Shown here: positions 13,469 through 34,714 of the stretch, piece after piece
Layout of the letters: every line of letters starts with the position of its first letter
Position numbering within the stretch: position 1 is the first letter of the stretch
Source of the DNA: Entrophospora sp. SA101
Lineage: Eukaryota > Glomeromycota > Glomeromycetes > Entrophosporales > Entrophosporaceae
Assembly: GCA_958430865.1 (NCBI GenBank)
Contig: CAUDNR010000313.1
Location: 47,656-111,655 of the forward strand
Length of the DNA: 64,000 bases
Direction of reading: 5' to 3'
The notes under the pieces: generated by a model
What the model saw: only the letters and a program-made list of their open reading frames with translations
What the model was told of the DNA's origin: nothing
The model's database searches: none
Position numbers and translations under genes: made by a program

Positions 13469-16400
13469 TTAACTTGTATAAAATTTGATATCAGTAATTT
13501 TGCGACCTTTATCTTTTAATAAATTTTTGCTTCGACTTTCGTTATTTTTTAAGAAATCAGCCAAATCTTTTTTGTTGTATCAGCAAACATCTTCTTGGGT
13601 CAATAAATATATTTCAGGGTTCCCCTCTTTATTGACTAGACGCACATGCTGTAGAGGATTTTCTACCGAGGCTTTGTGTTTCTTTGTGGCTTGTTCTTGG
13701 CACTTTTCACAGCCTTTTCTTTCGGTTTTCAACTTATTCAAAGTTAGGCATTTAGTTCGGTTGCCAAGGGCTTCGTGACGGAGTTTGGTGCTTTGTTCTT
13801 TTTTTTTCTCTAAATCAGTGGTTAATTTTTGAACTTCTTTGGCCGCGTCCGGTTTGGTTTTCTTTCAGTTTTCTAGTTTTTCTTTTATTTCTTCGATTTT
13901 CTCTTTGGCTTGCTGAATTTGTTTGTCATACTTGTGGCAATGATTACAAGTCTCGTGCTTGACCATTTCTTCTTGAGTTTTTTGCTCATGATTACTACAA
14001 TATTTTTGGCAATCTCGGCATTTTTTATTTTTTTCCTTAAAATCATTTATTTTATCATGCTGACTTTTATATTCGTCAAGTAGTTTCTGGTAAGTTGCTC
14101 CTTTTTGTTTTAAATCTTGGGTTTGAGTGGCAATAGCTACTTCACCAATGGTTGGGTCAACCGGAGAGTTAGCAATTTTTCTTGCCATTTCTTTGGTATT
14201 TACTCCGGTAATTATTTTGCTATCTTTCATTATTTTCTCCTTAACTTCTAGCGGCAGAGTAGATTTTAGTATCCTCTCTTCGGCTTTTTCTTTTTCCTCC
14301 CGCAATTCGCTTTCAACTTTGTCTTTGGCTTTTTTCAATTTTTCTAAATCAATTCAATGTTTTTTACAATAAGGCGTTTTTTTTAATTTACTACTATCGG
14401 AACTGATTCAAGTTTTAGTCGCCGACAGTGGCTTTTTTTCACCCGCATTATCTTTTTTAATTAAGAGCAGCAGCAGATTGTCCTTGTTTTCTCCGGCTTT
14501 GATTATTAATAAGTCGATTACTTGTTCACACTTTACTTGCTTGCGGGTTTGTTTAGTAAATAATTGGGGATTTTGACAGCCTTGACATTCTTTAATTTCA
14601 GTGGTTAATTTTCTAAATTGGGAGCAACGAGAATAAGCCTTAACACCTTGACTTTTATCGCAACAATTAGCAGTTTTGTGTTTCTTTAACTGGTTTTGGT
14701 GAACGGGACAATAAATTGCTTTTCCTTCTTCATCCTTTTTTCTCATCTGGCGGTAAAGCGGAGTTTTTAAATTTTTTACTTGGCCATCCTTGCCTTTCCG
14801 TTTCAGAATAATTTCTATTTCTTCATCGCCTTGAATCAAAACGCTTTTAATAATTTCGTCACCACTACCGGTTCATTTTTCTTGACAATTATTACATTCC
14901 TTAATTTGCTTTTGAATTTCTCTTAATTGTGGACAACCAATACCACAAACATGAGCAATAGTTTTATGTTCGGCTAATTGGCTCTGGTGAAGCGAACATT
15001 TTTCAATAGTTTTTTGGTAAAGACTAATTAATTTCTTCCCTGATTTGCTGATATTTTGCAGTTTTTCGGTCGGAATGAGTTTAATTTTTCCTTTGCGGGT
15101 GATAATAAGCAGAAATTTCTCGGCAAACCCTTCTTGGACTGGCAAAGCCGTGGTGAAGAATTCTTGGGATTTCAGCGTTGGTTTTAATTCTCCTTTTCTA
15201 ATTCTCGTGAAATACTCCTCGTCTAAGTTAGTAGTTTTATTGAAAGCGACAAATTTATAGAAAGTAAGGCTATATAATCTACCATAACTAGAAAAACATC
15301 ACAAATCATCGCGACGGTCCAGTTTAATCAGGGCTCAATTATCGCCCCGGGTTTTTAGTTCTTTGCCTTGGCTAGGAATATTGGTTGGCTCCACTGCCGA
15401 AAGACTGTGTGCCGTTAAATAATTATTAACTTTATTTTCTTTCTTGTTTTCTGAACGGCTCAATAAAACAATTCTTTCTTCGTGGGGAATTAATTGTCTT
15501 TCTTCAATTGAGTGTTGGGTTGAAGTAACTGTCGTTTTTCTTTTATCTTGGGGATAATCATTTTTTAATGCTTGTAATTCTTGAATTAATTTTTCTTTTC
15601 TTTTGGCTTGGTCAGTAATTACTAATTGTTGCTCATTATTGTCTTGTTGTAATTTATCAATATCATTTTGTAGTTTTTCTCGGCGTTCGGGAGTAAATTG
15701 GCGAAAACTAGCGGGCGTATCTAAAATGCGATTAATGGCTTCTTGTTCTAAATTGCTGGTTTTTTCCGGTGAATCAGGTGATTTCTCCTGGATGGTTCGC
15801 AATTGGTGCTCTAACTTTTTTAACTCGGCTTGGAAACGAGTTCTTAATTTTTGTTCTCGTTCTTCATCGGAGGAAGCACCATGAGCAATTTGGGCGATTT
15901 CCTGGTAATTTTCAATAATGAAGCGGCGGGTTTCTAAATTAATCAATTCTTTCTGATTTTTGTGATAAATAAATTGGGCCTTTTTTTGAATATTTTCTAA
16001 GCGTTGATTAATAAATCCTTGCAGAACTTCTTTGAGCGAAAAAATCTTGGGTTGGTCATCAATCAAGGCCCGCATTTTCACCGAAAAAGAATTTTGTAGT
16101 CTGGTAGTTTTGAATAGTTGATTGAGAATAACTTCCCCATCGTAATTAGGGTCAAAGCGGCAATGAATATTAACCGGTTCTTCATAACTGGAATAATCAG
16201 CAACATTACGCAAACCATCAATTTTTTTGTCTTTAATTATTCGACTGATGTTTTCTACTAATTTGGCCTTGTTAACTTTATAAGGTAATTCAGTAATATG
16301 AATTAAATCTTTTTTTGGTTTAGTGGAATTATCTTCTTTCTCCGGCTTGCTAGAAATAATTTCGGCTTTGGCCCGAATGTAAATAGTCCCTTCGCCTTTT

Positions 16401-19359
16401 TCGTAGATACTATGTAATTTCTCTTGTTCTAAAATTTGACCACCGGTTGGGAAATCAGGTCCTGGCAGATGAGTAATTAATTGTTCCAAAGTAATTTCTG
16501 GTTCCTGAATAAGACTAATGGTCGCATTAACTACTTCTCCTAAATTATGGGGCGGAATATTAGTACTCATTCCGACGGCAATACCACTGGAACCGTTTAA
16601 TAATAAATTAAGACTAGCTGGTAAAATCTTGGGTTCTTTTTGGTTTCATCGTAATTATCAATTCATTCCACCGTTTCAAAAGCCAAATCTTCTAGCAGAT
16701 AAGCACCAAATTTAGTTAAACGAGCTTCGGTATAACGCATCGCAGCGGCGGGGTCACCATCCATTGAACCTCAATTTCCTTGACCATCCACCAATGGATA
16801 ACGACAATGGAAGTCCTGAGCCATTTTTACCATGGCTTGGTAAATACTTTGGTCGCCGTGGGGGTGATAATCACCCATTACGTCCCCGATAATTTTGGAG
16901 GCTTTGCGATGGGCTTTGCCCGGAAGCAGATTTAATTGATAAAGAGTATAAAGTATTCTTCTTTGGACTGGTTTTAAACCATCATATAATTGCGGCAAAG
17001 CCCGGTCTTCCACGACCGCATAAGCATAATCCAAGAATTTGACCAATAAAGCCTGACCAATGTCTACCTTATTATCAACGACTGTTAATTGAGCATTTTT
17101 ATGTTCGCCACTTTCTAAACGTCTTTTGCGTGGTTCACTTTTGGCGCCCATTAAATCTTCAATGATGTCCCGAATAGAAGGGGGGTTAGGGAAAAGTAAT
17201 TCGTGGAGACAACGCTTCTTGACCGCCATGGTAGTTTCCCGTAATTGTTGGGGATTCATTTCTCCTAATCCTTTAAAGCGTTGTAAACGACCAGCCGTTC
17301 CTTTGGTTTGCTGTTGGTAAGTCTCTAATTCATAATCATTATAGAAGTATTTAGTTTCTTTTTTAGTTTGTAAGCGGTAAAGAGGGGTCACTGCCAAATA
17401 AAGTCGATGTTCATCAATCAAGTAGCGGAAATAGCGGACAAAAAAAGTTAAAGCCAAACATTCAATATGCTTACCGTCCGCATCGGCGTCGGTCATGATT
17501 ACTACTTTTCCGTAGCGGAGTTTTTTTAATAGGCTTTCTTGGGTTTTCTCAACTATGGTTCGTAATTGTTCTCCGGTGAGAAAAGTGTGAGCCGGAATTA
17601 TTTGTTCTTGTTCGTTTTCGTCTTGATAAATAAATTCTTCGGGGATTTCTAATTCTTCGGTAATATCACTTTCTATTTTCGTTCGAAAGCGATTATAGTG
17701 ATTTTGGGTGGCTTCGCTGACACTAAACCCTAAGGCATTGATTAAATTCTTTATTTCTTCGTTCTCTAAAATTTTGTTCCGCTCGGCTTTTTCTACATTG
17801 ATGATTTTTCCCTGAACTGGTAAAACCGCTTGATTATAAGGGTCACGAGCCGACTTAGCACTACCGCCCGCCGATTCTCCTTCCACAATAAATAATTCGT
17901 TGTTGACTGCTTCTTTGGAAATACAAGGGGCTAGTTTGCCGGGCAAAGCGGCACCGCGTCCTCCCTCCCGCAAGGATTTTTGGTATTCCTCGGTTTTCGC
18001 TCGATTTTGGGCGGTTTCAATGATTTTTTGGCTAATTGCTTCCGCACTATTGCCGTGGTCTTGGAGGAATTTTTTAACTAAATCGTAAGTAATGTTTTTA
18101 ACTATATCCCGCACGGGAGTCATTGCCAAACGATATTTAGTTTGACCAGAGAATTGGGGGTCTTTCACCCGAATAGCCAAAATGGCAACTAATCCTTCCA
18201 AAATGTCGTCGGCTTTTATGCTTAATTTCAGATTAGTATATTTTTCTTTGATTCAATCACGACAAGCACTAATTAAGCCATTTTCAAAACCGTCCAGGTG
18301 GCTTCCCCCACCGCCAGTGCTAATGTTATTACAAAAAGACTTAATTTGGCTCTTTTTTTGTTCTTGATTATACTGAAAAGCAAAATTTAAGTAAAAATAC
18401 TCTTTTTGGTAATTTCCTTCTTCATTTTTTCTTATTGGAATCAGGTCAGTTCATTCCTCCGTGCAGACTTCGGTATTTTCTAAGTAATTCTCTTGGTTTA
18501 GTTCCTTTACTCAGCCGGCTAAGCCACTGCTAAAATGATAAGTAATTGGTGCGGCGTCAGGAGAAGGGTGAAAAATTAAAGTTAAATTAGGATTAAGATA
18601 AGCCAAATCTTTGAGGCGATTTTGAATAGTCTCAATTTTGAAATAAGTAAATTCAGGAAAAATTTTCGAGTCGGGAGTAAAGGTAACAATAATTCCGCTT
18701 GGTCTTCCCGGAGTGTCAATAACTTGTGAATTTACTAAATTTCCTTCCCGGAATTCGACTATTCCTGTTTTATCTTTTTCTTGACAATTATTGCACCCCT
18801 TAATTTGCTTTCTTAATTCTTCTAATTGTTGACGGCAAGTTACACTCCCACAAGGGTGGTTATCGTCTTCGTGTTTTGCTCATTGGGTTTGGTGAAGCGG
18901 ACACTTTTCAATTACTTTTCGGCTACTTTCGGCTCGCAGATAGGTTGACAAAGCGTTAACGGCGGTTACTCCTACTCCGTGTAATCCCCCCGAGGTTTTG
19001 TAAACTTTACTTTTTAATTTACCACCAGCGTGAAGGATAGTAAAAATGGTTTCCAAAGAATTTTTTTTAATAGTAAGGTGTTTTTCAATAGGAGCACCAC
19101 GCCCATTATCTTCTACCGTAATAGTTTTTTGGTCCGCTGAAAGAGTTATTTTGATTTGACTACAATAACCAACGACTGCTTCGTCAATCGAGTTATCAAT
19201 TACTTCTTGAAAAAGATGATGTCAACCTTGTTCGTCAGTTGAGCCAATATACATTGCCGGGTAATTTCTGACTGAGTCAATATCTCCTTTTGGAACTTGA
19301 ATACTTTCGGCTTCGTAATCAATCTCTTGTTCTTCTATGATTTTTTTTTTGTCATCCAT
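13469..19359 (-). CDS. gyrBA: GyrB-GyrA fusion topoisomerase with zinc insertions; one -1 frameshift
   Basis: A single minus-strand frame runs from a GyrB start ([12 protein letters not shown] at 19359) through the whole B subunit into GyrA without a stop or ATG at the joint. B part: GHKL ATPase ([36 protein letters not shown]), Toprim ([19 protein letters not shown]), end [12 protein letters not shown] near residue 745. A part: [15 protein letters not shown] from about 773, catalytic tyrosine in [10 protein letters not shown] near 876, [17 protein letters not shown]. At 16637-16641 a run of five A (coding strand) puts the following sequence in the -1 frame; otherwise the product is about 1963 residues. 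The GyrA tail lacks a recognisable GyrA box (QRRGGKG) and is rebuilt from zinc modules and coiled coils. TGA is Trp, e.g. DGQGN-W-GSMDGD. Gyrase or topo IV cannot be decided. No other gyr or par gene is in the window. Confidence 0.9.
13700..13999 (-). other. Zinc staple module A4 in GyrA tail (long hairpin)
   Basis: Opens with YCSNHEQ (C-x2-H) and closes with GCEKCQ (C-x2-C-Q) 100 residues later. The interior is predicted helical and rich in K, E and Q ([23 protein letters not shown]). An extra H-x2-C-x2-C cluster ([10 protein letters not shown]) lies near its start. Last of four such modules in the C-terminal part. Confidence 0.6.
14009..14368 (-). other. Zinc staple module A3 in GyrA tail (long hairpin)
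   Basis: Opens with YCKKHW (C-x2-H) and closes with KCRDCQK (C-x2-C-Q), 120 residues in total. The span between is a long charged helical region ([17 protein letters not shown]) with a short non-helical middle. Same ends as modules A1, A2 and B1, but with the hairpin greatly lengthened. Confidence 0.55.
14576..14710 (-). other. Zinc staple module A2 in GyrA C-terminal domain
   Basis: 45 residues from [14 protein letters not shown] to IKECQGCQ. Pattern C-x2-H-x6-H, internal C-C and C, closing C-x2-C. It sits between two predicted beta strands ([11 protein letters not shown] and [14 protein letters not shown]). Confidence 0.75.
14885..14998 (-). other. Zinc staple module A1 in GyrA C-terminal domain
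   Basis: 38 residues from [14 protein letters not shown] to [10 protein letters not shown], with inner H, C and C ligands (VCGIGC). Its closing residues IKxCNNCQEK are shared with the GyrB module B1, which is strong evidence that the two copies are related by descent. It follows the strand [19 protein letters not shown] typical of the GyrA propeller. Confidence 0.8.
16637..16641 (-). other. -1 frameshift site in gyrBA (A5 run before GAACCC)
   Basis: On the coding strand ACC AAA AAG AAC is followed in frame by about ten codons and a TAA; re-reading the G as GAA CCC AAG gives the conserved GyrA continuation KEPKILPAS. The motif C-AAA-AAG resembles the A-AAA-AAG class of -1 slippery sites, but a single missing A through mutation or sequencing error explains it equally well. 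Confidence 0.8.
18784..18903 (-). other. Zinc staple module B1 inserted in GyrB ATPase domain
   Basis: Residues about 153-192 of the fusion: [12 protein letters not shown], then CGSVTC, then [10 protein letters not shown]. It replaces the tight turn between the strands that in ordinary GyrB read RDGKxYxQxF; the flanking [12 protein letters not shown] and [10 protein letters not shown] correspond to those strands. Ordinary GyrB has no cysteines here. Confidence 0.85.
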
Positions 19360-19500
19360 GGATTATATTAATTTTTACAGTATAATTCGTTAAATTTTGG
19401 TTTATTTGTTCAGCAATTCAAAAACTAGTAAAAAACAATTGAAATTGATTTACTAGGAAAAAATTGGAAAAAAGAACTAATTTTCAATAAAATTATCAAT

Positions 19501-19719
19501 ATGAGTTGAAAATTTTGGTGACCATGAAGCGCCGGGGTAATGATTGGTGTCATTCTAGCCTGGCTTATTTTTATCGGAATTTGGGTTGCACAAATAATTC
19601 GTTTGTCTAAAAGAAAAGATAAAACTCTGATGTGGGTAGTGTTAATTTTAGGTTTTGCCATTACGCCTTTTCTCGCTGGCTTAATAGGTTTATTTCTTGG
19701 TAGAGAGAGAGATAATTAA
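19501..19719 (+). CDS. Small two-helix membrane protein
   Basis: 72 residues beginning MSWKFWWPWSAGVMIG, with four TGA-Trp or TGG codons in the first nine. Two hydrophobic helices (about 12-34 and 43-65) separated by RLSKRKDK. It is divergent from gyrBA, 142 bp away, and 60 bp upstream of prp. No family recognised. Confidence 0.55.
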
Positions 19720-19778
19720 GCGTTTATTTTTGAGTGCGAGAGAAGCGGTTTAATAAATTCAGGGCAAATTAGAGAATA

Positions 19779-20108
19779 ATGATTAAGATATTTTACCAGT
19801 TGGAGTTGGGCAAAAATAAGAAGCAATTTAAATATATCAAAGTCCAGGGTCATGCTAATTCTGCCCCCAAAGAAAAAGATTTAGTTTGTGCGGGAATTTC
19901 GGCAATTGTTAACGGCACCGTTAATTTTTTGCAAGAAAATTATGCTGAAGACTGCCAAATTTCAGTTTTTCCCGCGGAGATAATTATCAATTGTTTTTTG
20001 CCAAGTAATCAAAATTTTCAACTGTTGCTAGAAATGTTTTTTTATCAATTAAAGAATGTTGCTTTGACTTACCCCCAATATTTTCAATTCTTTGAGAGAA
20101 ATGGGTAA
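19779..20108 (+). CDS. prp: Ribosomal-processing cysteine protease Prp
   Basis: 109 residues. The catalytic pair is the His of VQGHANSAPK (about residue 27) and the Cys of DLVCAGISAIVN (about 41). Prp removes the N-terminal extension of ribosomal protein L27; the matching substrate site LDLQFFA is present in rpmA at 11188-11502. In most Firmicutes prp lies between rplU and rpmA; here it is 8 kb away from rpmA. Confidence 0.9.
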   Translation: MIKIFYQLELGKNKKQFKYIKVQGHANSAPKEKDLVCAGISAIVNGTVNFLQENYAEDCQISVFPAEIIINCFLPSNQNFQLLLEMFFYQLKNVALTYPQYFQFFERNG

Positions 20109-20133
20109 AGCATTTCGTGCGAGAAATGTTTTT

Positions 20134-21826
20134 TTATCAATTTTTATGTGATTTTGTCACGTCTCCCTTAGTGATATACAAAAGTCTTCATTTTTCGGCT
20201 TTTCTTGCTTCTTCACCTAGTTCTAAATTTAAATCATTTACTCATTTTGATTTTTTTTCTGTTATTTCCGGATTAGGATTATTATCATCTTTAACTTCGA
20301 CTAGCCAGTGAATACCATTCGTCTATTACCAAAAAATCTGGAAAATAGTGTCTTTGCTTTTTACCATAAAGAATATAAGTTTCATCTCCCCATTGTAAAA
20401 GTCTAATTTAGAGTAATCTTAAGCAAACTATCTCAATCATCTCCCGATTTATCAATATCTTCTTCGGTAATAAACAAATAAGTTCACTTCTTAGTTTGTT
20501 TAGAATTTAGTTTTTCTATTTATTTGTTAGCCGCTTCTGCTTTTCTTCGCACAATCTCGTTGTTCCTGTCTTCTTCTGATTTTATCTCTACTAAATAATA
20601 TAACTCTTCATTATCAATAACAATAAAGTCAGGATAGTAGCGACGATAACCATTATATCAATAATTAAGGTAGATATTATCCGTTATAAGTAGTCTAATT
20701 CATTTTCTAATTTTCTTACTTTTGTCAATTAAAGCAGCAAATTTTCTTTCAATACTACTTTGAAAACTATCATAAGTATATAAACTTTTCTGAAATCCAT
20801 AGCCAATTCATCTCAACCTTCTTTAAGCATTCCCACCGCGATAATAATTTTCTTGGGATTATTAAAATCATCAATAGTTTGTAATTCTTGGGCCAGAGTC
20901 TCGTTAATATTACTGCTGTCTATGCGAATTATCTTTTCAGTTAAATTATGTTCGCTTTTCAACAATACTTCTGTTTCCTCGGCATGTTGAATATTCTCGG
21001 CTATTATTAACATTAAAGCCTTTCGCGGTTCCAATTTGTAAATTTTAGTGTAAAGGTCAAGTTGCTCTTGCTTTCGGTTAAGAGTGATAAGAGCATCTTC
21101 CAGTTTAGTTTTCTCATTATCATAACTGTCTTTTCGACCAACAATTACCGGCTTTTTAATTAATTTGTCTTTTAAAGCATAGGCCAAAGGGTAGCGATAA
21201 ATTATTTCTTGCGGCGGAGTTTCTTTGTGAGGTGTGCCAGTTAGTCCAATTAAAATTTTAGGTTTTAGTTCCCGAATGGCTTCGGAAAACTTTTCTCCAT
21301 AATATAAATGGTGTTCGTCGGCAAAAATAACCAAATCATCTAATTTGCTTAAATGTTCCCGTAAAGATTGACCTAATAATTCGTCATAATTGCTAGTTTT
21401 GCGAGCTGTTTTGCCGCGGGCTTGGGTTAAAGATTGAACGGTAAAAATAAATAATTTAACCGAGTTTTTGTCAGTAATTTTAGCAGTGTGAAAGTTTTTG
21501 ATGTCAATAATATGGGGTGGTTTAATGGTTAATTTATCAGCCAAAGAGTTAGGTTTGTTAAGTGAAAAATTGTTAATGGTCTTTTCTCTGATTATTTTTC
21601 CCGGAGCCACAATTAGAAAATTAGTTATTTTTTCGGCTTCGGCTAAATAGTTTAAAATAGCCGCCATGATATAAGTTTTTCCTACTCCGGTGGCTACCGA
21701 GAGAATACATTCAGACCAATTTTCAGACTTGTAATAATAATTTAAAAGGGTTTGAACTGCTTCTTTATTTGGTCGGCGGAGTTCCAGTTTTTTGGCAATG
21801 TTGTCGAGGATGATTTGGTTAAGCAT
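20134..21826 (-). pseudogene. Type III restriction subunit (Res), broken and internally deleted
   Basis: The N-terminal helicase part (338 residues, 20813-21826) is open: Walker A ATGVGKTYIMA near residue 45, DEAH-like box ADEHHLYYG, and GLTGTPHKE. After VGMLKEGWDE the frame no longer matches a helicase. In other frames follow two remnants of the C-terminal nuclease region, one with YYPDFIVIDNEELYYLVEIKSE (in two pieces, a stop inside) and a second, related one with RHYFPDFLVID and WLVEVKDDNN ending near 20134. So the helicase C-half is gone and two nuclease tails lie in tandem. The partner Mod gene is upstream. The locus is probably not an active nuclease. Confidence 0.8.
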
Positions 21827-21853
21827 TTTTTAATAAATTATACTATCTGCATA

Positions 21854-22276
21854 TTATACTAGACAAATTGGAATAGAAGTGGCTATGCCAACTAATGTTA
21901 TATTTTTTACTTCGTATCCTGAATCTTTAATTTCTTTTTCATAAATCCTTAACTTTTTTTCTAAATCTACATTGTCTGGCTCGCCCAAAGAATTAATCAC
22001 TATTTATAGATTGTCCAGTATAATTTCACCTAACCTTGCTCAAATGAAAGGCTGTTTTTCTTGTGAAAAATTTTTTGGGTAAATAAGTAGCGAAGGATCT
22101 TTGAGAGTTTTTTCATCGTAAACCATTGGAGAATCATTAAAAGAGACAGTCAAGAACCGAAAAAAATTCAATGGGGTTCTCAAATTTTTAGTAATTTCTT
22201 TTAGCAAGAATCATTGCAAATAATTTTTTTTTACTTTCTCCTCAGTAATAAATTTGCCACTTTTGTTATCTTTCAT
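21854..22276 (-). pseudogene. Hypothetical gene between mod and res, with internal stop
   Basis: Starts at an ATG that overlaps the last codons of the mod-type gene, so translation is probably coupled. 90 codons are open (MKDNKSGKFITEEKVKK to WARLGEIILDNL) until a TAA at 22004-22006; the same frame then continues for about 50 codons to 21854 (EKEIKDSGYEVKNITLVGIATSIP). No family recognised. It may be a small accessory protein of the restriction locus. Confidence 0.5.
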
Positions 22277-22308
22277 TTTCATTGAAAAAGGAATAGGAGT
22301 TATAATTC

Positions 22309-22348
<40 letters not shown>

Positions 22349-24710: not shown

Positions 24711-24880
24711 GATTCTTTTTCTTTTTAATTTTCTTTCTTTGCAGATACTCAAGGAACATCAAATAAATTCATTTCATTAAATTAAATAACTAATTTACTT
24801 AAACAGTATTGCACGTTTTAATTCGACTCACATCAGGACGGTTTCTGTACATAGTAGATAGTATAATTTTTAATAGTTAT

Positions 24881-25040
24881 TTAGGTGGACGAGTTCTTGG
24901 TCTTTGTTATTTTTTTCTTAAATTCTCTTTTTTTCTGGGCTTGCTGGCTTTGTTTTTTACCTCAAAGTTTCCAGTAAACTAAGCAAATCAGCAAAATCGG
25001 AAAAAATAAGAGGGTTAGGAAAAATCTAGCATTGGACATA
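24881..25040 (-). pseudogene. Small MSN-type membrane peptide, frameshifted
   Basis: Start MSNAR, then an A6 run on the plus strand (25020-25025) shifts the frame; with one base fewer the hydrophobic stretch LTLLFFPILL and a basic tail follow, closely matching the intact 41-residue protein at 42126-42251. The rest of the gap 24711-25174 shows no gene apart from a 20-codon leader frame before 25175. Confidence 0.5.
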
Positions 25041-25174
25041 AAAAGGCGTATGAAAAAGGAGAACGGAAAATAATATAAAAAAATATTTATAAATGTAAAA
25101 TATATATATTATGAAAACAATAGTAATAATTAAAAAGCAAATAAATAAAATAGTGAAAGGAGGAAAAAGATAGT

Positions 25175-25837
25175 ATGACATGAGATTCTAGCAGCGTAAA
25201 TAAAGATACAAAAGATTTTAAAACAGCAAGTTTAACCATTGCTGGGATAAACAAACGTGCTAGTTCTGATATAAAAGAAAACGAAAAAGGTTCACAAGCA
25301 ATAAACGAAACAACTTGACCTTATCGTGTTCAAACCAAAGAAAGCCTTCTTTACGCTAATGGTGAATTCAACAATTTAAGTATTTTTCGTATTCCCTATT
25401 CAAATCATCCAAGTGGGAGAAACAGAGAAACAAATCTTGATGTATTTTATTTCTTTGTCTACTTTTTAAACCGAGAAATAGAAATACCGCTTAGATTCAA
25501 ATTTGTGAGCGAAGCAAACGTAGCCTATTTTGGATTAAGCACAGGAGATAATAGTTCCAATGATGTAGCATGAGTAAAAAATATTATTCAAACAGAAAAA
25601 TCCCGTTGAGATGCTCTTGGTTATACTGAACCCGAAGACTTAATCCAAGAAAATAAACAGTATGTAGATAAAGGAATTAGAAAAGAACACCGTAATCGTC
25701 CTTCTTATGAAGATTTACAAACTCAATTAGAACAAGCCAAAAAAGACAAAGAAGAAAATGAAGCCCCTAGTTTTGAATCTTTCGTGGAAACCGAAGCCAA
25801 GACTCTCCAACAACCTAATTATCCCTCTCAGAAATAA
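25175..25837 (+). CDS. Hypothetical soluble protein with strong ribosome binding site
   Basis: 220 residues, charged, without signal peptide or membrane helix. N-terminal half has beta-like segments (FNNLSIFRIPY, NLDVFYFFVYFL); the C-terminal part is a coiled coil (DLQTQLEQAKKDKEENE). GAAAGGAGG lies 11 nt before the ATG, at the end of a 20-codon open frame (MKTIVIIKKQ) that stops 2 bp before the start; leader frames of this kind also precede 48818 and 54946. Probably co-transcribed with the zinc-ribbon gene that starts 15 bp later. No family recognised. Confidence 0.65.
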
Positions 25838-25852
25838 AACTAATATAAAACT

Positions 25853-26083
25853 ATGACTAAATGTGATATCTGCGGCAAAAAGTTTAGCGGGAGTATTCTG
25901 CGCTATAATGGCACTACTTACTGTCCCGACTGCCGCCAACAAGCCGAAAGCCAAGGCAACGCTCCTTGAAATAAATTTTTAAAACCTGGTGGTCTTCACT
26001 TAGGCTGGTGAATTGGAATTGGAGTTCTTTTATTAGTAGGATTAGGAGTTTTGATTTATTGACTAATAAAAAGAAAAAAATAA
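25853..26083 (+). CDS. Zinc-ribbon protein with C-terminal membrane anchor
   Basis: 76 residues. A four-cysteine ribbon KCDICGKKFSG...YCPDCRQQ (CxxC at residues 4-7 and 24-27), then one membrane helix (about 50-72, WWIGIGVLLLVGLGVLIYWLI) and the tail KRKK. No signal peptide. Three TGA-Trp codons hide the anchor in a standard-code reading. Same design as the proteins at 10645 and 37015. Function unknown. Confidence 0.75.
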
Positions 26084-26259
26084 TACAACAGCAAAAAAGA
26101 AACTAAAAATCAGCCAAAAAATTTTAGCAAAAGGGCAGCCAGTTGTCATTTTTTTACTTATTGAACTTTTACAGTTTTCTTTTCTTGTTTTTGAATTATT
26201 TGAGTTTGGCATTTTTATCTTTTAAAGCCCTTTTTTTGCTAAAATTTTAAATAAATTAA

Positions 26260-27591
26260 ATGTTTCGCAATTATAATTGTTCGCAATTAACTTCTCAACT
26301 AGAAAACAAAAAGGCAGTTTTGAATGGCTGAACGAGAAGGATGCGAAAATTAGGGAGTTTGTTATTTTTTGATTTGCACGACTCTTCCGGAATGGTTCAG
26401 GTAATTGTAAAAAAAAAAGAACTAATCAGCCCTCTCCAAAGAATTAATTCTGAAACTTTGCTCCGGATTTGTGGAACCATCCGGCCAAAAATTACTCGTC
26501 AGCCAAAGCAAGAAATTGAAATAGAACTCGAAAAATACCAAGTAATCAACCGAACTAAGCCTTTGCCTTTTGAAATTAAAGACGAAGTAAACATTAATGA
26601 AGACACCCGCTTCCGTTATCGCTATTTAGATTTGCGCCGTAATATTAGCAAAAAACCTTTAATTATCAGACACCATTTTCTTCACCAAACAAGGAATTAT
26701 TTATCCAAGCGAGGATTTGTTGAAGTAGAAACACCAATTTTAGCCCAAAATTCCCCCGAAGGTTCTAACTGTTTCGTTGTTCCTTCTCCGCTAGGAAAGC
26801 AAAGATATTACACTCTGCCGCAATCTCCCCAAATTTTTAAGCAATTGTTAATGGTGAGCGGCTTTGCTAAACACTACCAAATTGACAAAAGTTTTCGCAA
26901 CGAGGGCGCCCGAAGTAATCGACAAATTGAATTTTCTCAACTAGACTTAGAAATGAGTTTTACCTCAGCAAAAAAAATAATGAGTTTTGTAGAAAAGTTT
27001 CTAAAACCTGTCCTAAAAAAAATCTTTGGCTACCACTTGAAAACTCCTTTTCTTACTCTAACTTATCAACAAGTAATGGAAAAATACGGCACTGATAAAC
27101 CTGATTTGCGTAATCCTAATAACAAAAATGAACTAAATTTTTTGTGAATTGTCGATTGACCGCTTTTTGAATATAACAAAGAGGCCAAAAAATACGAAAC
27201 TTTGCGGCACCCTTTCACTTTACCAAAAAAAAAATACATTGAACCTTTGCTAAATGATAAGATTAAACCAGAAAAAGTAATTTGTGAAGCTTTTGATTTA
27301 GTTTGCAATGGCGAAGAAGTATTAAGCGGCAGTTTAAGGATTTACCAGCGAGAATTACAAGAAAAAATTTTCGCAATTTTAGGTTATACTCAGCAAAGAC
27401 AGGAAAAATATTTTGGTTATTTTTTGCAAGCCTTGGAGTTTGCGGCTCCTCCGCACGGAGGTTTTGGCTTAGGAATTGACCGCTTGCTAGCAATAATCCT
27501 TAATTTAAAAAGTTTAAAAGAAATTATTGCTTTTCCCAAAAATATTGATGGCAGTTGCTCCTTAACCGGAACTCCTAATCATTTTGAATAG
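26260..27591 (+). CDS. aspS: Aspartyl-tRNA synthetase lacking the GAD domain
   Basis: 443 residues against about 590 for bacterial AspRS. OB fold at the N-terminus (GWTRRMRKLGSLLFFDLHD), motif 2 FRNEGARSNRQIEFSQLD (bacterial consensus FRDEDxRADRQPEFTQ), motif 3 GGFGLGIDRLLA. KYGTDKPDLR is followed almost at once by LWIVDWPLFEY, so the GAD insertion domain of bacterial enzymes is cleanly absent. It charges tRNA-Asp, and perhaps tRNA-Asn if a GatCAB route exists (a GatC-like gene is at 59353). It converges on no gene and is followed by tmk, 68 bp later. Confidence 0.93.
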
Positions 27592-27659
27592 AAAGTAAAA
27601 TTTAAAAAAAATGAAATGTTTTTGTTTGGCCTCTTAATTTAATCATTAAAAATATAAAT

Positions 27660-28313
27660 ATGCCTTTGTTGATTAGTTTTGAAGGAATTGATGGTAGCGG
27701 TAAAACTAGTTTGGTGGAAAAATTAAGCCAAAAATTACCAGATTCCTTTATCACTAAGGAACCCCGGGGCACAGAATTAGGCAAAAGAGTTTGACAATTA
27801 ACCAACGAAGCCTTGGCAAATGAAAAACTCACTATTGACAGTTGAAGCCAGTTTTTTCTTTTTGCGGCAGCCCACAACGAACACCTTAAAACAATAATCA
27901 GACCGCAGTTAGAACAGGGAAAATTAGTATTAGTCGACCGCTATATTGACAGCACTTTTGTTTACCAAGGATTGCGGGGAAATTTGGCAGAAGAGCAAAA
28001 AAAAATGAGAGTAAACTCAATCAGGGAAGTTTTCCAAAAATTTATCAACACCCCTTTTCCTCACTTAACTTTCATTCTCGATTTAGAACCAGCCAAAGCC
28101 CAAACTAGATTAAACAAGCGGGAAGAAGTAAATAATTGAGATAATTTAAACTTGGAATTTCACCACCAAATTCGCCAAGGTTACTTAAAATTAAAAGAAT
28201 ACTTTCCCCACCGGAATTATTACGTTATTGATGCCGACCGTCCTTTAAAAAATATAGAGGAAGAAATTCACCAAGTTATCGTTAATTTTCAAAATAATTC
28301 AAAAAGGAGATAG
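27660..28313 (+). CDS. tmk: Thymidylate kinase
   Basis: 217 residues. P-loop FEGIDGSGKTS at residues 7-17, the TKEPRGTELG loop, and DRYIDSTFVYQG for nucleotide binding. It converts dTMP to dTDP for DNA synthesis. Four Trp codons are TGA, so it is not seen in a standard-code translation. Length is normal; the end AAAAAGGAGATAG provides a ribosome binding site for the next frame. Confidence 0.95.
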
Positions 28314-28368
28314 AAAACATGAATAATCATTGAAATTCTTAGATTTGCCTTTTAATGGAAAAGCAAAA

Positions 28369-28908
28369 ATGTCAAAAAAAATTATTAATATGGAAAAATG
28401 AGAATGAGTTGATTGATTAGATAAAGGAGAAATCCGTTTAACTGACACCCTGCTTGCCGACATTAAAAAAGAAAAGAGTTATTATGGTAATACTTTTTTC
28501 TCCCTCCATTTAGTAAAAGGCAATGAAACTTACGAAGCAGTTGCTTTTGTAGGAAAAGAAGAAGTAATTAGTTTAGAAGAAAGAATTGAAAGAAAGTTAA
28601 ATTCCTTTATTAACATTAAAAAACTTATCCAAAAAGCAGGAAAAGACAATAATGAAATAATGGAAAAATTGACCAAACTAGAAGAGCAAGTAGAACTAAT
28701 TAAACAAGATTTAAAAGAAAACACTACTAATAATGAATGGCAAAAAAGCCGAATTCAAAGAGAGAAAGAAAGAGTAGAGGAAAGATTAAACAAATATAGC
28801 CAACTAAAAGCCGGTAATTATTACCATTTTCACCTCAAAATGAAAGAGAAAAAAGGAGAAACTTATTATGTTTTGTTAGATTTCCAAGAGGTAAATAGGG
28901 GAAATTAG
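28369..28908 (+). CDS. Hypothetical coiled-coil protein
   Basis: 179 residues. N-terminal MSKKIINMEKWEWVDWLDKG, a central coiled coil (about 100-150: EIMEKLTKLEEQVELIKQDL), and a C-terminal beta-like part (YYHFHLKMKEKK, YYVLLDFQEV). No signal peptide or membrane helix. It lies 55 bp after tmk. I recognise no family. Confidence 0.6.
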
Positions 28909-28941
28909 ATTTGCAAGGGTGCGAAAACACAAAGCAAGCAA

Positions 28942-30216
28942 CTATTCTGCTTCTGCTGGCAAATAATTGCAGGTTCAATCAACTAATTTTTCTTGCTCAA
29001 TTATGAATTCTTTTTTTTCTTGGCAATCTCTTATCAATATTTTCCCTTTCTCTAATTCTTTTTTGCCAACAATGACAGCCAAACGAGGAGAATAGTAATT
29101 AATATTTTTGAAAATGTTTTTAACTCTTTTGACTTCTAAATTAGAAACAATTTTGTAATTTTTGCTTAATTTTTCTCGTCAAGCAAGAACAAGTGGATAA
29201 GCCGCTTTTTCTAAAATCAAAAAAAGAATATCGGGGGAGAGATTTAGATAATTACCGTGCTGTTTTTCTAAAAAAGACAAATAATTGACTAGACGGTCGA
29301 CACCCAAAGCAAATCCGGCGGCTGGTGAATCAATCATTCCCAGTTGCTGAAAAAGTTGGTCATACCTGCCTCCTCCTAAAATAACTTGTTTATCATCAGT
29401 TAATGAGAGTTCAAAAACTATTCCAGTATAATAATCCAACCCACGGACCAAATGTTCATTATAAAAATGCTTAATTGCTAAACCGTTTAAAATTTTATTC
29501 AATTCTCCTAAATAAATTAAATCATTTTCTGTCAATACTTCTTTATACGAAGGCAAATTGTCTCAATGACAAACTTTACAATCTAAAATTCGCAAAGGGT
29601 TAAGTTGATAACGCTTTTGGCAATCAACACAAAGTTCTTTATTCGTTAAGTACTCTTTCAATATTGCTTTATATTTTTCTTTGGTTTCCGGTTTACCCAG
29701 GTAATTTCAGTGGAGAACAGCGGCTTTTTTTAAGTCAAATGATTTAACAATTTGCTTAATTAATCAAAATAATTCTCCATCGGCAATTATCCCCTCAACA
29801 TTAATTAATTCTACTCCTAGTTGCCAAAATTCCCGGTAACGACCCTTTTGGGGTCGCTCATAGCGAAACATATTTCCTCAATAGTATAATCGCAAAGGAT
29901 ACCCAGGATTAACTAACTTATTTTGACAAACTAAACGTACAACGCTTGCTGTTCCCTCGGGACGCAAGGCTAGTTGTCGCCCTTTGCGGTCCGAAAAAAT
30001 AAACATTTCCTTTTGGACAATATCGGTGGTTTCACCGACGGAAATGGTAAATAGTTCTCGATATTCATAAGTGGGTAAAATAACTGGTTGATAACCAGCC
30101 TTATTGAGAATATTTTTGGTGATTTGTTGAATTTGTTGGTAAAAAAATGCCTGAACTGGCAAAATATCCTGGGTACCGCGGGCTTTGGCGAATAATTTAC
30201 TTGATTTTTCGGTCAT
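28942..30216 (-). CDS. hisS: Histidyl-tRNA synthetase
   Basis: 424 residues, normal length. [12 protein letters not shown] at the start, motif 2 [11 protein letters not shown], the HisRS zinc-like segment [19 protein letters not shown], HisA signature [15 protein letters not shown], and motif 3 [11 protein letters not shown]. Several TGA-Trp codons break it in a standard-code reading. In many Firmicutes hisS and aspS are adjacent in one operon; here they are convergent and separated by tmk. Confidence 0.95.
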
Positions 30217-30299
30217 TAATTAAAGTATTTGCTTTTGTTCACTTTTTCTTTGAAATCTTTGGCTAATTTTTTGATTTCTTCTAGATCAGTCTGAGTCAT
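30216..30299 (-). CDS. 27-codon open frame overlapping the hisS start
   Basis: MTQTDLEEIKKLAKDFKEK and a few more residues, ending in TAA whose last base is shared with the hisS ATG (TAATG). The spacing suggests translational coupling, as in a leader peptide. It could also be chance; there is no homology that I recognise. Confidence 0.35.
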   Translation of the reverse strand: MTQTDLEEIKKLAKDFKEKVNKSKYFN

Positions 30300-30446
30300 A
30301 GCATTTATGTAATATTTTTATCCTAAAACTATTATCATTCTCACTACGCGTGAGTTATATATGAACCACCATAAAGAAAACGAAACTATTAAGATTAAGC
30401 CTTAATCTACAAAATTGTAATCAATAAAATTAAAAATGATTTATAT

Positions 30447-31118
30447 ATGAACAAACTCAAACATTCTAAACGCTATCGGGAAATTTCCCAAAAAATCGAG
30501 CCAAATAAACGCTATTCCCTTAACGAAACTTTAAAATTTCTCCAAGAAAATAATCAAGAAAGGTCAAAGAATATTGAAATGGCTATTTCTTTACATTGAA
30601 GCGAAAAAAAAGTGCCACTCAGAAGCCAGTTAAGTTTACCTCACCCTATTAAGAGACAAGAAAAAATTATTATCATTGGCGAAGAATTGCCCCCAACTCT
30701 TCAAAATAAAGAAGAAATAGAATTAGTCAGTGCCGGAAAGGTTGCTCAATTGGTTAATAAGGAAAAAAAAATGATAATATTAACCCACACCTCTTACCAA
30801 GATAAAATTAAGCCCCTAGCTAAGATTTTGGGACCAAAAGGAATATTTCCGAATAGTAAAAATGGCACTTTAACGGATGATTTAGAAAAAGCAGTAAAAG
30901 AAATTCAGCAAGGGAGAATAGAAATCAAGACTGATAAGCAAGGCAATATTCATATTTTATTAGGAAAAGCCTCGTTTTCCTTAGAGCAACTAAAAAAGAA
31001 TTACGAAATTGCTTATGAAACTATTAAATCTTTAAAACCAACTAATTGAAAGGGTGATTATATTCGCAATTCTACCCTTTCTACCACCATGGGTCCAGGA
31101 ATTAGAGTTTTGACCTAA
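30447..31118 (+). CDS. rplA: Ribosomal protein L1
   Basis: 223 residues of the L1-stalk protein. KHSKRYREISQKIEPNKRYSL opens the family pattern, AKILGPKGIFPNSKNGT is the conserved hinge loop and STTMGPGIRVLT the C-terminus. Two TGA-Trp codons. rplK, normally just upstream, is not present; the gene stands alone. Confidence 0.95.
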
Positions 31119-31240
31119 TTTTGCCAAAATTTTCCCGTCTTTTCTAAATAGGAATAGGAGCGGTTCGCTAGCACGCACGATTACTTCCTGTATGGCATAA
31201 TTTTCAAAGATTTACTGGGGTTTTACTAAAATTGTCAAAA

Positions 31241-31696
31241 CTACCCATTTTTTATCCCTCGCAAGACTAAGTTAACACATTCTATTCGTTGGGGAAATTG
31301 GGGCAAATCACCAAAAACTGCCATTTGCGGACAGTTGTTTAATTGATATTTTTGTCCTTGGAGCATTTTTTCGATATTTCCGATTTCTGTTTTTACTAAT
31401 TCAATTTTTTTATTTTCCATTCAATGGCAAAGTATATTAGCTGCCGCAACCGTCAGACAACAGGCTTGTTGCTCACTGGCAAAACGGGCCAACTTGACTA
31501 GATTATTTTTTTGTTGAATAAGTAAGTGAATGGTGTCCCCACAACTAGTATTTAAACTGAAAAAAGTCCGAAAAGGAACATTCAAGGAATTGCTAATTTC
31601 TTGTAATTTAGCCAAAGAAATTTCCTGAGTAGGGTTATTAAAATTTTCGAGAATCATTTGGCGTTTTTTTTCTCTATCAAAAGATAAGTTAGACAT
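31241..31696 (-). CDS. sufU: SufU/IscU-like iron-sulfur cluster scaffold
   Basis: 151 residues. Ligand cysteines in NTSCGDTIHLL (near residue 52), in QQACCLTVAAANI (near 79), and in RIECVNLVLRG (near 139), with the conserved Asp after the first Cys. It assembles or relays Fe-S clusters or sulfur. The partner cysteine desulfurase is not in the window. One TGA-Trp (CH-W-MENK) joins the two halves. Confidence 0.82.
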
Positions 31697-32293
31697 AAGA
31701 AATTTTTGTTGGTTTTTTATTAGGGTTTTATTTAGATTTTTTGGCTAGACTAACAGTTAGAAAAAGTAAGGGAATTGTCAAGCAGGATTAGTTATTTTTT
31801 CCTGGAATCGGGGATGCCGTAAGGTTCTTTTTGGAGGACTTTGGTTTCCAATTCTGCTTCTTCCACTTCTTCAGTTCTCGTGACATGCTGGTCAGTAATC
31901 CTGGCATTATAGCAAGAAAGAGAGTGATTATAAATACTTGTAATACCTGTCGCACCCCTATTTACTCAGGAGAACCTATTTATGGTTCGTAAGATAGCAG
32001 CGGTTTTCAGTATCGATAAGGAGATTATGGAGAAGCCAGCCATACCCCAATGATTCCATTCCAATGCTGCTTGCCATGGAGGAACTTATGGAGAATATAG
32101 CAGGCATTGAAATAACGCCGAAATTTGAACCCAATGCGCGGGTGATGCTATGATGAATGACAAAAGAAAATAGAGGTTAAAGAGAATGAAAAAAAGAGAT
32201 AACTAGTGAAACAGGTTAAAGAGAGCATTTATTTTTTATATTGTATTAAAATAAATCAATAAACAAAAATAATGATAAAAATAAAAAAATTAT
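31697..32293. other. 597-bp stretch with broken zinc-ribbon frames
   Basis: No intact gene. On the plus strand a frame holds NTCNTCRTPIYSGEPIYGS (CxxC) and stops near 31990; one frame over, MVRKIAAVFSIDKEI continues with FHSNAACHGG to about 32170. Together they look like a shifted zinc-ribbon protein of the kind at 10645 and 37015. On the minus strand an acidic open frame (TRTEEVEEAELETKV) ends near 31795. The base composition of 31800-32170 is richer in G and C than its surroundings. Confidence 0.4.
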
Positions 32294-32911
32294 ATGTTGC
32301 GTCTATTATTTAGCCTGACCTCGCAATTTCTTTTTATTGCTCTTTTAGAGGATGAAAAATGCTTAAAAAGCCGCCAAAGAGTTAACTTTCGCCAACATTC
32401 CGAAAACTTTTTCCCTATTTTAAAGCAAGTTTTAGCAAAAACCAATCACTCTTTAAAGGAGATTGAGGAAGTTTATTTCACTAACTTGCCAGGCAGTCAA
32501 ACTGGGCACCGAATTAGTTTAACTTTTGTGCTTACTTTGCAAGTACTAAATCCCCAAATTAAAGTTTACCATCTCAACAGTTTGCTTTTTCAAGCCGGAA
32601 AAAGTAGAGCCATTAGTTTAATCAGCATTGACCAAAAAAAAACTAAGTATCATTGTGCTGTTTATCAGGTCACTAAATGTTTGGTTGAGCCAAGTGAAAT
32701 TGACCTAAATGTCAGCCAAAATAAAGAATTAATCCAAATCCAAAAGCAGTTTTCTGATTATCTTATTTATGAGGACTTCCACCAAATGCTCTGTCACGAT
32801 TTGAACAACTTACCTCCCAAAAAGATAAGATTTTTGGCTAACTTTCGGCAATTGTTTCCCTATTTTCAATTGTTAGAAAACGAAAAATTAATCAATCAGC
32901 AACAAAATTAG
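32294..32911 (+). CDS. tsaB: tRNA t6A biosynthesis protein TsaB, divergent
   Basis: 205 residues. The N-terminal ASKHA fold reads MLRLLFSLTSQFLFIALLED, then RQHSENFFPILKQVL and NLPGSQTGHRISLTF, matching TsaB's RQHSExLxP and GPGSFTGLR. TsaB partners TsaD/TsaE in making N6-threonylcarbamoyladenosine on tRNAs that read ANN codons. The C-terminal half is poorly conserved. Confidence 0.85.
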   Translation: MLRLLFSLTSQFLFIALLEDEKCLKSRQRVNFRQHSENFFPILKQVLAKTNHSLKEIEEVYFTNLPGSQTGHRISLTFVLTLQVLNPQIKVYHLNSLLFQAGKSRAISLISIDQKKTKYHCAVYQVTKCLVEPSEIDLNVSQNKELIQIQKQFSDYLIYEDFHQMLCHDLNNLPPKKIRFLANFRQLFPYFQLLENEKLINQQQN

Positions 32912-32976
32912 CAAGGTTGGCAAAAAAATTAGGAAAAATTTAACCTAACATTGTTGATTAAAAACTAGCTAAAATA

Positions 32977-33135
32977 ATGATGAAAAGAACAGAAAATAAA
33001 ACTTATATGCTTGGTGGGCAAAAATTACTAGAAAGCGAAAATTTTAGGAAAGAAGAGAGAGGCATTGAACTAGCAGAGAAAGTTAGTTCGGCAAATTGGC
33101 ATTATCTCCTGTTTAATTTTAATGGTGATAGTTAA
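32977..33135 (+). CDS. Short hypothetical frame
   Basis: 52 codons, MMKRTENKTYMLGGQKLL to LFNFNGDS. Charged, no membrane helix, between tsaB and prmC on the same strand. No family recognised; may be a remnant or chance. Confidence 0.3.
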   Translation: MMKRTENKTYMLGGQKLLESENFRKEERGIELAEKVSSANWHYLLFNFNGDS

Positions 33136-33196
33136 CCCCTGATTTGTGAATTTAGTTGAACATAAGGAAAAAACACGGCAAAAAATAGTGAGAAAT

Positions 33197-34102
33197 ATGA
33201 CAAAACCCATCAAATCTTATTCCTACCAAGATTGCTGAAATTATTTTTTGCGTATTTTAGCAAAAAGCGCCCATTTAAACGAGAACCAAAAAAGAGATTT
33301 AATTAGCCTTTGCCAAACCACTCCTGCTGAATTTTGGTTGAATTTTCCTCATAAAACCTTAACTTCAACTGATTATCACCAAGTTTGTCAAAAAATCCGG
33401 CGGTACCAAGCAAAAAGCATCCCAGCGGCTTACTTAAACAAGCAAACTGATTTTTATAATTTACCCTTTAAAATCGAAAAAGGAGTATTTATTCCCCAAA
33501 AAGATACGGAAATCTTGCTAGAAAAAACTATTGAATTAATTAAGCGGCATTGAAAAAAACCAAAAAGATTAAAAATCTTGGATATTGGCACTGGCTGTGG
33601 CAATTTAGCGATTTGTTTAGCCAAAGTTAACCCCCAATGGAAAATAACGGCCACAGATATCAGCAAAAAAGCCTTAAAAATAGCACAAAAAAATGTGTTA
33701 CTACACCAAGCAAAAAATGTCAAAATAGAAGAAGTGAAAGAAAAAGAAAGCAATTTATTTAATGAAAATTCGGAAGCAAAAAAAACAAAGAAATATAATG
33801 TAATTATTACCAATCCTCCTTATATTAATGAAAAAGAGCACCATGAACTTCCCTTTTCCACTAAGCAGCAGCCAAAAAGAGCCCTGGTTGCACAAAATGA
33901 CGGCTATTGATTTTACGAAAAAATTATCCAGCAAGCTCAATCGCACTTAACTAAAAAGTTTCTCTTAATTATGGAAATCGGCTACCAACAAAAAGAAAAA
34001 ATTCTAAAAATGTTAATAAGAGAATTTCCCCAAGCAAAGGCGGAAATTTTTCTTGATTGAGCCGGCAAAGAACGAGTGATTGCGGCTTACAGGGTTGTAT
34101 AG
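33197..34102 (+). CDS. prmC: Release factor glutamine methyltransferase PrmC
   Basis: 301 residues. The helical N-terminal domain is followed by ILDIGTGCGNLAICLAK (AdoMet binding, near residue 131) and the catalytic TNPPYINEKE. It methylates the GGQ glutamine of release factors. The region between these motifs carries a short lysine/glutamate-rich insertion. The TAG stop (34100-34102) is inside tRNA-Phe, overlapping it by 10 nt. Confidence 0.93.
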
Positions 34103-34169
34103 CTCAGTTGGTTAGAGCGCTTGCCTGAAGAGCAAGAGGTCGGCAGTTCGACACTGCCTACAACCACCA
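34093..34169 (+). tRNA. tRNA-Phe (anticodon GAA)
   Basis: Acceptor GGTTGTA/TACAACC, anticodon loop CTGAAGA (GAA), T loop TTCGACA, encoded CCA. Its first 10 nt are also the last codons of prmC. Confidence 0.95.
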
Positions 34170-34213
34170 TAAAAAACAAAAAAAATCAAAAAGACGTGTA
34201 TAAAATATAACAT

Positions 34214-34714
34214 ATGAACAAAGTAAATATGATAGGTACAAAAGAATTAATAGAAAGAACAGTTAAAAGCGTAAAAAAAAAAGATAAAGAATTAAGTAAG
34301 CAGTTGCCGGGGGCTTGAAAAAGTTTTGTGGCGTCAGGAAGGGTTCTCGTAAAAGTAATTGAAGAACATTTTTTTTTAGTCATTAAGGAAGCTTTAAACA
34401 ATGGTGAAGAAATAGCAATTAAAAACTTTTTCACTATCAAGCGACAAACACCAAAAACAAAAGGTAGTAAACGCTGTGATAAACACGAAAGAGAAATAGA
34501 AAGTTTTCGTCGGGCAAATAAAGGGAAAGGCATTCAAGCTTACGCCAAATCGGAAATTTTTAAAAAATTGGTTACTGACACTAGAAATTGCAACAATTGT
34601 AAAATAAAAAAACAACAAATAGCAAAATCAGCCAAACCAACTACCCGAATAACTTTGAAAACGAGCAAAAATTTCTGAAAGGTTGTTAAGTCCCCCGTTA
34701 AAGGAAAAAGATAA
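34214..34714 (+). CDS. HU-like nucleoid protein with zinc staple in the DNA-binding arm
   Basis: 166 residues against about 90 for HU. The dimerisation half fits HU (ELIERTVKSVKKKD, FFLVIKEALNNGEEIAIKNFFTIKRQTPKTK). Where ordinary HU has the tip of its beta-arm, 42 residues RCDKH...RNCNNCKIK are inserted; the return strand TTRITLKTSKNFWKVVKSP then matches the HU C-terminus. CDKH and CNNC are zinc-ligand pairs as in the gyrase modules, and CNNC is identical. The protein is very basic. It follows tRNA-Phe and ends 16 bp before tRNA-Gly. Confidence 0.8.
34475..34600 (+). other. Zinc staple module H1 in the HU arm
   Basis: 42 residues from CDKHEREIESFRRANK to TRNCNNCK. C-x2-H at one end, C-x2-C at the other, helical and charged between, no inner Cys/His. 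It is the simplest copy of the module also seen in GyrB and GyrA. Confidence 0.8.

Follow-up and report, generated by a model that had tools for sequence, protein, structure and literature searches.

Does the CxxH...CxxC pattern that recurs in the gyrase and HU proteins of one stretch of endobacterial DNA correspond to a shared domain, and what could such a domain do there? The stretch of 64,000 nucleotides analyzed here (the window) covers positions 47656-111655 of contig C293 (CAUDNR010000313.1; 127,492 bases) in the 101 Mb genome assembly of the fungus Entrophospora sp. SA101. Because the best database match of its proteins is the endosymbiont GvMRE of Glomus versiforme, and because its genes are open when TGA is read as tryptophan (code 4), the window is assigned to a Mycoplasma-related endobacterium (MRE), of which it is a contig lying within the fungal assembly. 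Relatives of the same genes are found on the SA101 contigs C1609, C2028, C326 and C792. A first-pass annotation had described six zinc "staples", each starting with CxxH and ending with CxxC, and proposed that they derive from one clasped insertion domain that spread within this lineage among DNA-topology and nucleoid proteins.

Translation with code 4 confirmed all six staples, five on the minus strand and one, that of HU (34475-34600), on the plus strand. Three of them close with CNNC, and GyrB and GyrA have the string IKxCNNCQEK in common, both as announced. The canonical GyrA unit contains additional cysteines and histidines (CxxH-x6-HK-x3-CCDK...C...CxxC), and the fourth and fifth copies (14009-14368 and 13700-13999) are of a coiled-coil type and have additional CxxC pairs within or beside them. 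The pattern was counted in 39 open reading frames (ORFs) of at least 150 residues, taken longest first with overlaps below 60 bases and totaling 14,768 residues; CxxH-x20..120-CxxC starts six times in this set, every time in a gyrase or HU protein, against a mean of 0.06 and a maximum of 2 after residue shuffling, none of the 1000 shuffles reaching 6. Profile searches were extended to 3218 ORFs of SA101 DNA, in which C792 is covered for about 33 of its 226 kb. Above the inclusion line, the canonical-unit profile retrieved gyrase, HU and one decayed HU relic, and nothing else; in the whole assembly, a search with one unit gave eight matches at E<=1, each in gyrase or HU. The hosts found are gyrase and HU, as first stated, except that GyrB and GyrA are not two genes but one fused gene on sister contigs.

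On C1609 and C2028, GyrB and GyrA form a single uninterrupted ORF of 1999 and 2069 residues, respectively. In the window, the first part of gyrBA (16597-19359, minus strand, 920 residues in code 4) holds the complete GyrB and, in frame with it, the beginning of GyrA, with the Pfam GyrB domains and positions 1-129 of DNA_topoisoIV in a single ORF, while the second part (13469-16570, minus strand, 1033 residues in code 4) encodes the remaining GyrA including the C-terminal pinwheel. The frame is broken near an A-run around 16597-16654, where the C1609 and C2028 copies are intact; a sequencing error, decay and slippage are all compatible with the break. The GHKL, transducer, Toprim and topoisomerase IIA breakage domains score above the Pfam cut-offs in the window parts and in P0025, P0034 and P0017, and the beta-pinwheel of the C-terminal domain (CTD) is present; NCBIfam gyrase models rank first for the window proteins, yet score under their full-length cut-offs. 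A search with the C2028 gyrBA scored 7988 candidates and gave 203 matches, and among the best 120 of these 203 we found MRE gyrases that are likewise fused, about 1560-2040 residues long and derived from GvMRE, DhMRE, Moeniiplasma and metagenomes, together with a few fused gyrases from bacteria outside the MRE, Mariprofundus and Photobacterium among them. The consensus of the GyrA box, QRRGGKG, has no match in blade 1 of the window and SA101 copies, where GKELKTRG stands at its place, and no box-like string occurs elsewhere in those copies; 8 of the 25 MRE proteins have such strings at later CTD positions. Two further observations were made on these genes: a transposase-like ORF, identified by eye only, adjoins gyrBA on C2028 (3582-4520), and the fused gyrases P0038 and P0039 have intein-type domains in their Pfam list.

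Four staples lie in the window GyrA, all on the minus strand. In the predicted structures, the blade-1 staple (14885-14998, CSLH...CNNC) forms helices 192-204 and 213-224 between strands, and the canonical blade-2 staple (14576-14710, CPVH...HK...CCDK...C...CQGC) forms helices 288-299, 309-314 and 316-327. The long staple (14009-14368, CKKH...CRDC), with about 110 residues between its pairs, is mostly helical, and the last-blade staple (13700-13999, CSNH...CNHC...CEKC) is a coiled-coil-expanded form of a copy found in all 18 aligned relatives counted below. From a gyrase alignment of 28 rows, 18 were counted, leaving out five incomplete fungal gene models (P0020, P0021, P0022, P0024, P0041), which hold parts of the staple sites, and five more distant rows, which hold none. 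Among these 18 fused MRE gyrases, complete staples are present at the last blade in 18, at blade 2 and at the long site in 15 each, at blade 1 in five and in GyrB in two, and no site is half-kept. P0034-P0036 have the last-blade staple only, the SA101 copies have five clasped inserts, and the intein-bearing P0038 and P0039, outside the alignment, have one CxxH...CxxC pair near their end. A distinct CxxC-x10-CxxC ribbon was also noticed in the GyrA body before GPDFPTGG in four of the 18 (C1609 and C2028 gyrBA, P0016 and P0017); it is absent from the window copy. The tree supports the MRE clade at 100%, and the one-staple group P0034-P0036 is placed with only 67%. The whole-protein tree, computed without the window, separates two SA101 rows that the GyrB N-part groups (P0014, P0015, P0016 and P0017 being concerned), a disagreement that would fit recombination between endobacteria or loss of the GyrB copy.

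The sixth staple belongs to an HU-family protein of 166 residues (34214-34714, plus strand), where it lies at the place of the beta-arm (CDKH...CNNC; C88, H91, C126 and C129). An HU profile search retrieved 66 relatives, of which 37 carry a precomputed PF00216 assignment; GvMRE alone has three stapled HU-type proteins. CxxH is present in all 67 rows of the alignment, window included, and of the 65 rows with letters at all four sites, 64 keep C, H, C and C; the one that does not is the fungal gene model P0013, and P0187 and P0188 are without the second staple half. The four ligands are conserved in the HU as in the gyrase alignments, as expected of a structural zinc module. Against a PF00216 cut-off of 22.4 bits, the window protein (18.3), P0001 (20.4) and P0009 (16.1) fall below and seven of the ten proteins scanned pass, these seven having been picked from proteins already listed with PF00216. 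In all ten, the match breaks off at the arm, between positions 57 and 71 of the 90-position profile. Solved HU chains align to residues 25-158 of the window HU model, in which the DNA-binding beta-ribbon arm is not present, the arm region (residues 89-139) being helical (helices 89-101, 114-125 and 127-139). Judging from this model, the staple appears to sit where HU normally has its DNA-gripping arm. Two further stapled HU paralogues lie on C792 (30752-31081 and 135338-135682), with 43% and 39% identity to the window HU. Besides, C1543 contains a decayed HU fragment with the CxxC half of the staple (L038:5666-5788, minus strand), which scores 28.8 bits with the HU profile and 14.3 bits with C and H masked; the same contig encodes a BTB/BACK protein, and the relic is apparently a piece of endobacterial DNA in the fungal genome. 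Short MRE gyrase matches of 70-79% identity, one with an internal TAG, on C1556, C1965, C314 and C2094 are possibly further relics or small MRE contigs.

Are the staples of GyrA and HU related? A profile built from 18 GyrA units, with no HU among them, matches the HU proteins of C293 (26.4 bits), C326 (25.6) and C792 (18.6 and 13.7) among the 3218 ORFs, and reciprocally a 64-row HU profile matches GyrA blade 2 of C293 (30.9 bits) and C2028 (30.0), the C1609 gyrase not being matched in this set. Reversed-ORF controls reached at most 4.6 and 8.3 bits. The models also display the same secondary-structure layout in HU and GyrA, with CxxH at a helix start and CxxC after a helix. These results must be weighed against the masking experiments, which speak for caution. 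Once C and H were masked, HU scored 16.3, 9.1 and 9.1 bits with the GyrA profile, one HU being lost and the window HU no longer significant (E 0.29), and GyrA scored 13.0 and 10.9 bits with the HU profile; a large share of the GyrA-HU score rests on the cysteines and histidines. The alternative is that the two staples arose separately and that a clasped hairpin dictates a like cysteine pattern, in line with the insignificant masked score of the window HU and with the fact that HU units have neither the CCDK nor the third cysteine seen in GyrA. However, the likeness extends to a non-ligand stretch, G-I-x-A-Y...F-K-K-L/I, common to both, and the C326 fragment, which is without the CxxH half, still scores 25.6 bits from its other half and 16.3 bits with its C and H masked, so that we consider separate origin rather unlikely. 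Common descent of the GyrA and HU staples appears likely on sequence grounds but is unproven. The proposal of a clasped unit that spread in the lineage is thus upheld by GyrB-GyrA kinship, by the reciprocal profile matches and by the like layout, but stops short of proven GyrA-HU homology.

Concerning GyrB, the staple (18784-18903, minus strand, CPLH...CNNC) lies in the ATPase region, the whole insert spanning about 18775-18918, and replaces a short turn of the relatives in the alignment. All three long gyrB matches of the assembly carry it, and for each the best match among the units compared is a GyrA blade-1 staple, HU being far behind. The GyrB and GyrA blade-1 staples agree at 27 of 45 residues, the top score among those units, and the two window copies at 29 of 46 residues and 105 of 137 bases. 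On the three contigs, all of one assembly, insert identity is 0.77-0.84 and flank identity 0.85-0.87, and the GyrB N-part tree splits the three SA101 sequences from seven other rows at 100%. Most likely, judging from these identities, the GyrB staple was copied from GyrA blade 1 within the gene, and this direction is proposed because P0016-P0018 have the blade-1 staple without the GyrB one. Only the two SA101 rows of the 18 aligned gyrases carry the GyrB staple and no record outside SA101 was seen to do so, so this copy lacks the independent confirmation obtained for the others: the expectation that the inserts are kept in close relatives failed for GyrB. An assembly chimera was rejected for the HU and GyrA staples, which are carried by independent records (GvMRE, Moeniiplasma, DhMRE and metagenomes), and an intein, an intron or a bypassed stretch was set aside by eye since no intein blocks are visible and the frame is open through every staple. 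Copying into GyrB and a copy number that varies among relatives would also be expected of a selfish or neutral in-frame insertion peptide tolerated in surface loops, comparable to Rickettsia palindromic elements. Such a peptide should scatter, whereas the staple is found in gyrase and HU only, its four ligands are conserved all-or-none in both, and in every HU relative found it stands where a functional arm would be, making this explanation highly improbable.

What the staple does can be approached from its positions. We propose that the staple is a module specific to this lineage and about 45 residues long, in which CxxH and CxxC clasp the two ends of a helical hairpin around a metal. The metal would most likely be a single zinc, and the canonical GyrA unit, having an additional H, CC and C, may hold two. 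The hairpin would emerge from a beta-loop and act as a rigid structural finger, standing in for the DNA-gripping beta-arm in HU and placed in GyrA on the inter-strand loops of the DNA-wrapping pinwheel. The finger may provide wrapping and bending with an extra surface for contact with DNA or partners, maintained by selection, and the module would have multiplied inside the gyrase gene, the copying from blade 1 to GyrB having probably taken place in the ancestor of the SA101 strains. Such a contact surface is proposed because the staple lies both at the HU arm place and on pinwheel loops of an enzyme without a blade-1 GyrA box, and a substitute wrapping surface is plausible since the window and SA101 gyrases have no GyrA-box-like string. 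The net charge is +4 for the HU staple (+8 including the nine residues behind) and +6 for blade 2; it is +1 each for the blade-1 and GyrB staples, which argues against DNA contact for those copies. Altogether, we give about an even chance to the staple being a structural metal-clasped hairpin by which proteins that wrap or bend DNA gain surface for contact with DNA or partners. The broader idea of a private metal-clasped domain, copied between chromosome-shaping genes, replacing the HU arm and decorating the fused gyrase so that bending and supercoiling go through a shared metal-dependent contact, is more tentative and remains doubtful.

Two other functions, close to those that the first-pass annotation had suggested, were considered. 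The HU, GyrA and GyrB hairpins could bind each other or share a binding partner and in this way tether gyrase to HU-coated DNA: this would suit one unit present in two protein families, the restriction of the eight assembly matches to these hosts and the long helical arms modeled for GyrA copies three and four, and is harder to reconcile with the single gyrase staple of P0034-P0036; we regard such docking or self-association as unlikely. Alternatively, metal loss or disulfide formation could alter supercoiling and nucleoid packing, making the staple a zinc or redox sensor. Cys/His ligands within proteins that set DNA topology are the sole support for this role, and structural zinc sites are far commoner than sensor sites, so it seems quite improbable.

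The structural contact hairpin would be of general interest since HU and gyrase belong to the best-conserved proteins of bacteria. A lineage with a replaced HU arm, a one-chain gyrase without blade-1 box and a hairpin common to both is a natural test of rebuilt DNA wrapping, and the domain, present in one to five copies and copied within one gene, can be followed there through an unusually clear series. The parent families are known, and the staple domain is apparently uncatalogued. No Pfam match exceeds the curated cut-off in the staple region of the proteins scanned, nor any NCBIfam match that of the window proteins, the matches below cut-off being NFACT_N and Neugrin in P0009 (E 0.0029 and 0.0082) and DUF4428 in P0169 (E 0.0068). 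No PADLOC defence family matched in three proteins, no solved chain came below E 0.7 with the GyrA unit profile, and two scans of GTDB contigs and one of IMG/VR gave no relative, the few exact patterns used not establishing absence there. We found no published description of the staple among the literature matches listed, and the 2015 MRE genome papers may mention it; in a passage search of PMC10507103 and PMC11423566, the terms gyrase, gyr, fusion, zinc and topoisomerase do not occur.

Compared with the HU/IHF family (PF00216), the window-type HU has the same N-terminal helices and first strands and differs in the stapled helical hairpin modeled in its arm region. Compared with other DNA gyrases, the MRE enzyme combines GyrB and GyrA in one chain, with five clasped inserts and no QRRGGKG-like string in the SA101 copies. 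In the Rad50 zinc hook, DksA-type and other zinc-clasped hairpins, a metal ties the helices of a hairpin or coiled coil; the MRE staple differs from the Rad50 and DksA types in having its clasp at the hairpin base, with CxxH paired to CxxC. Finally, Rickettsia palindromic elements are short in-frame peptides recurring in different genes, whereas the MRE staple is confined to gyrase and HU, with ligands conserved across the lineage.
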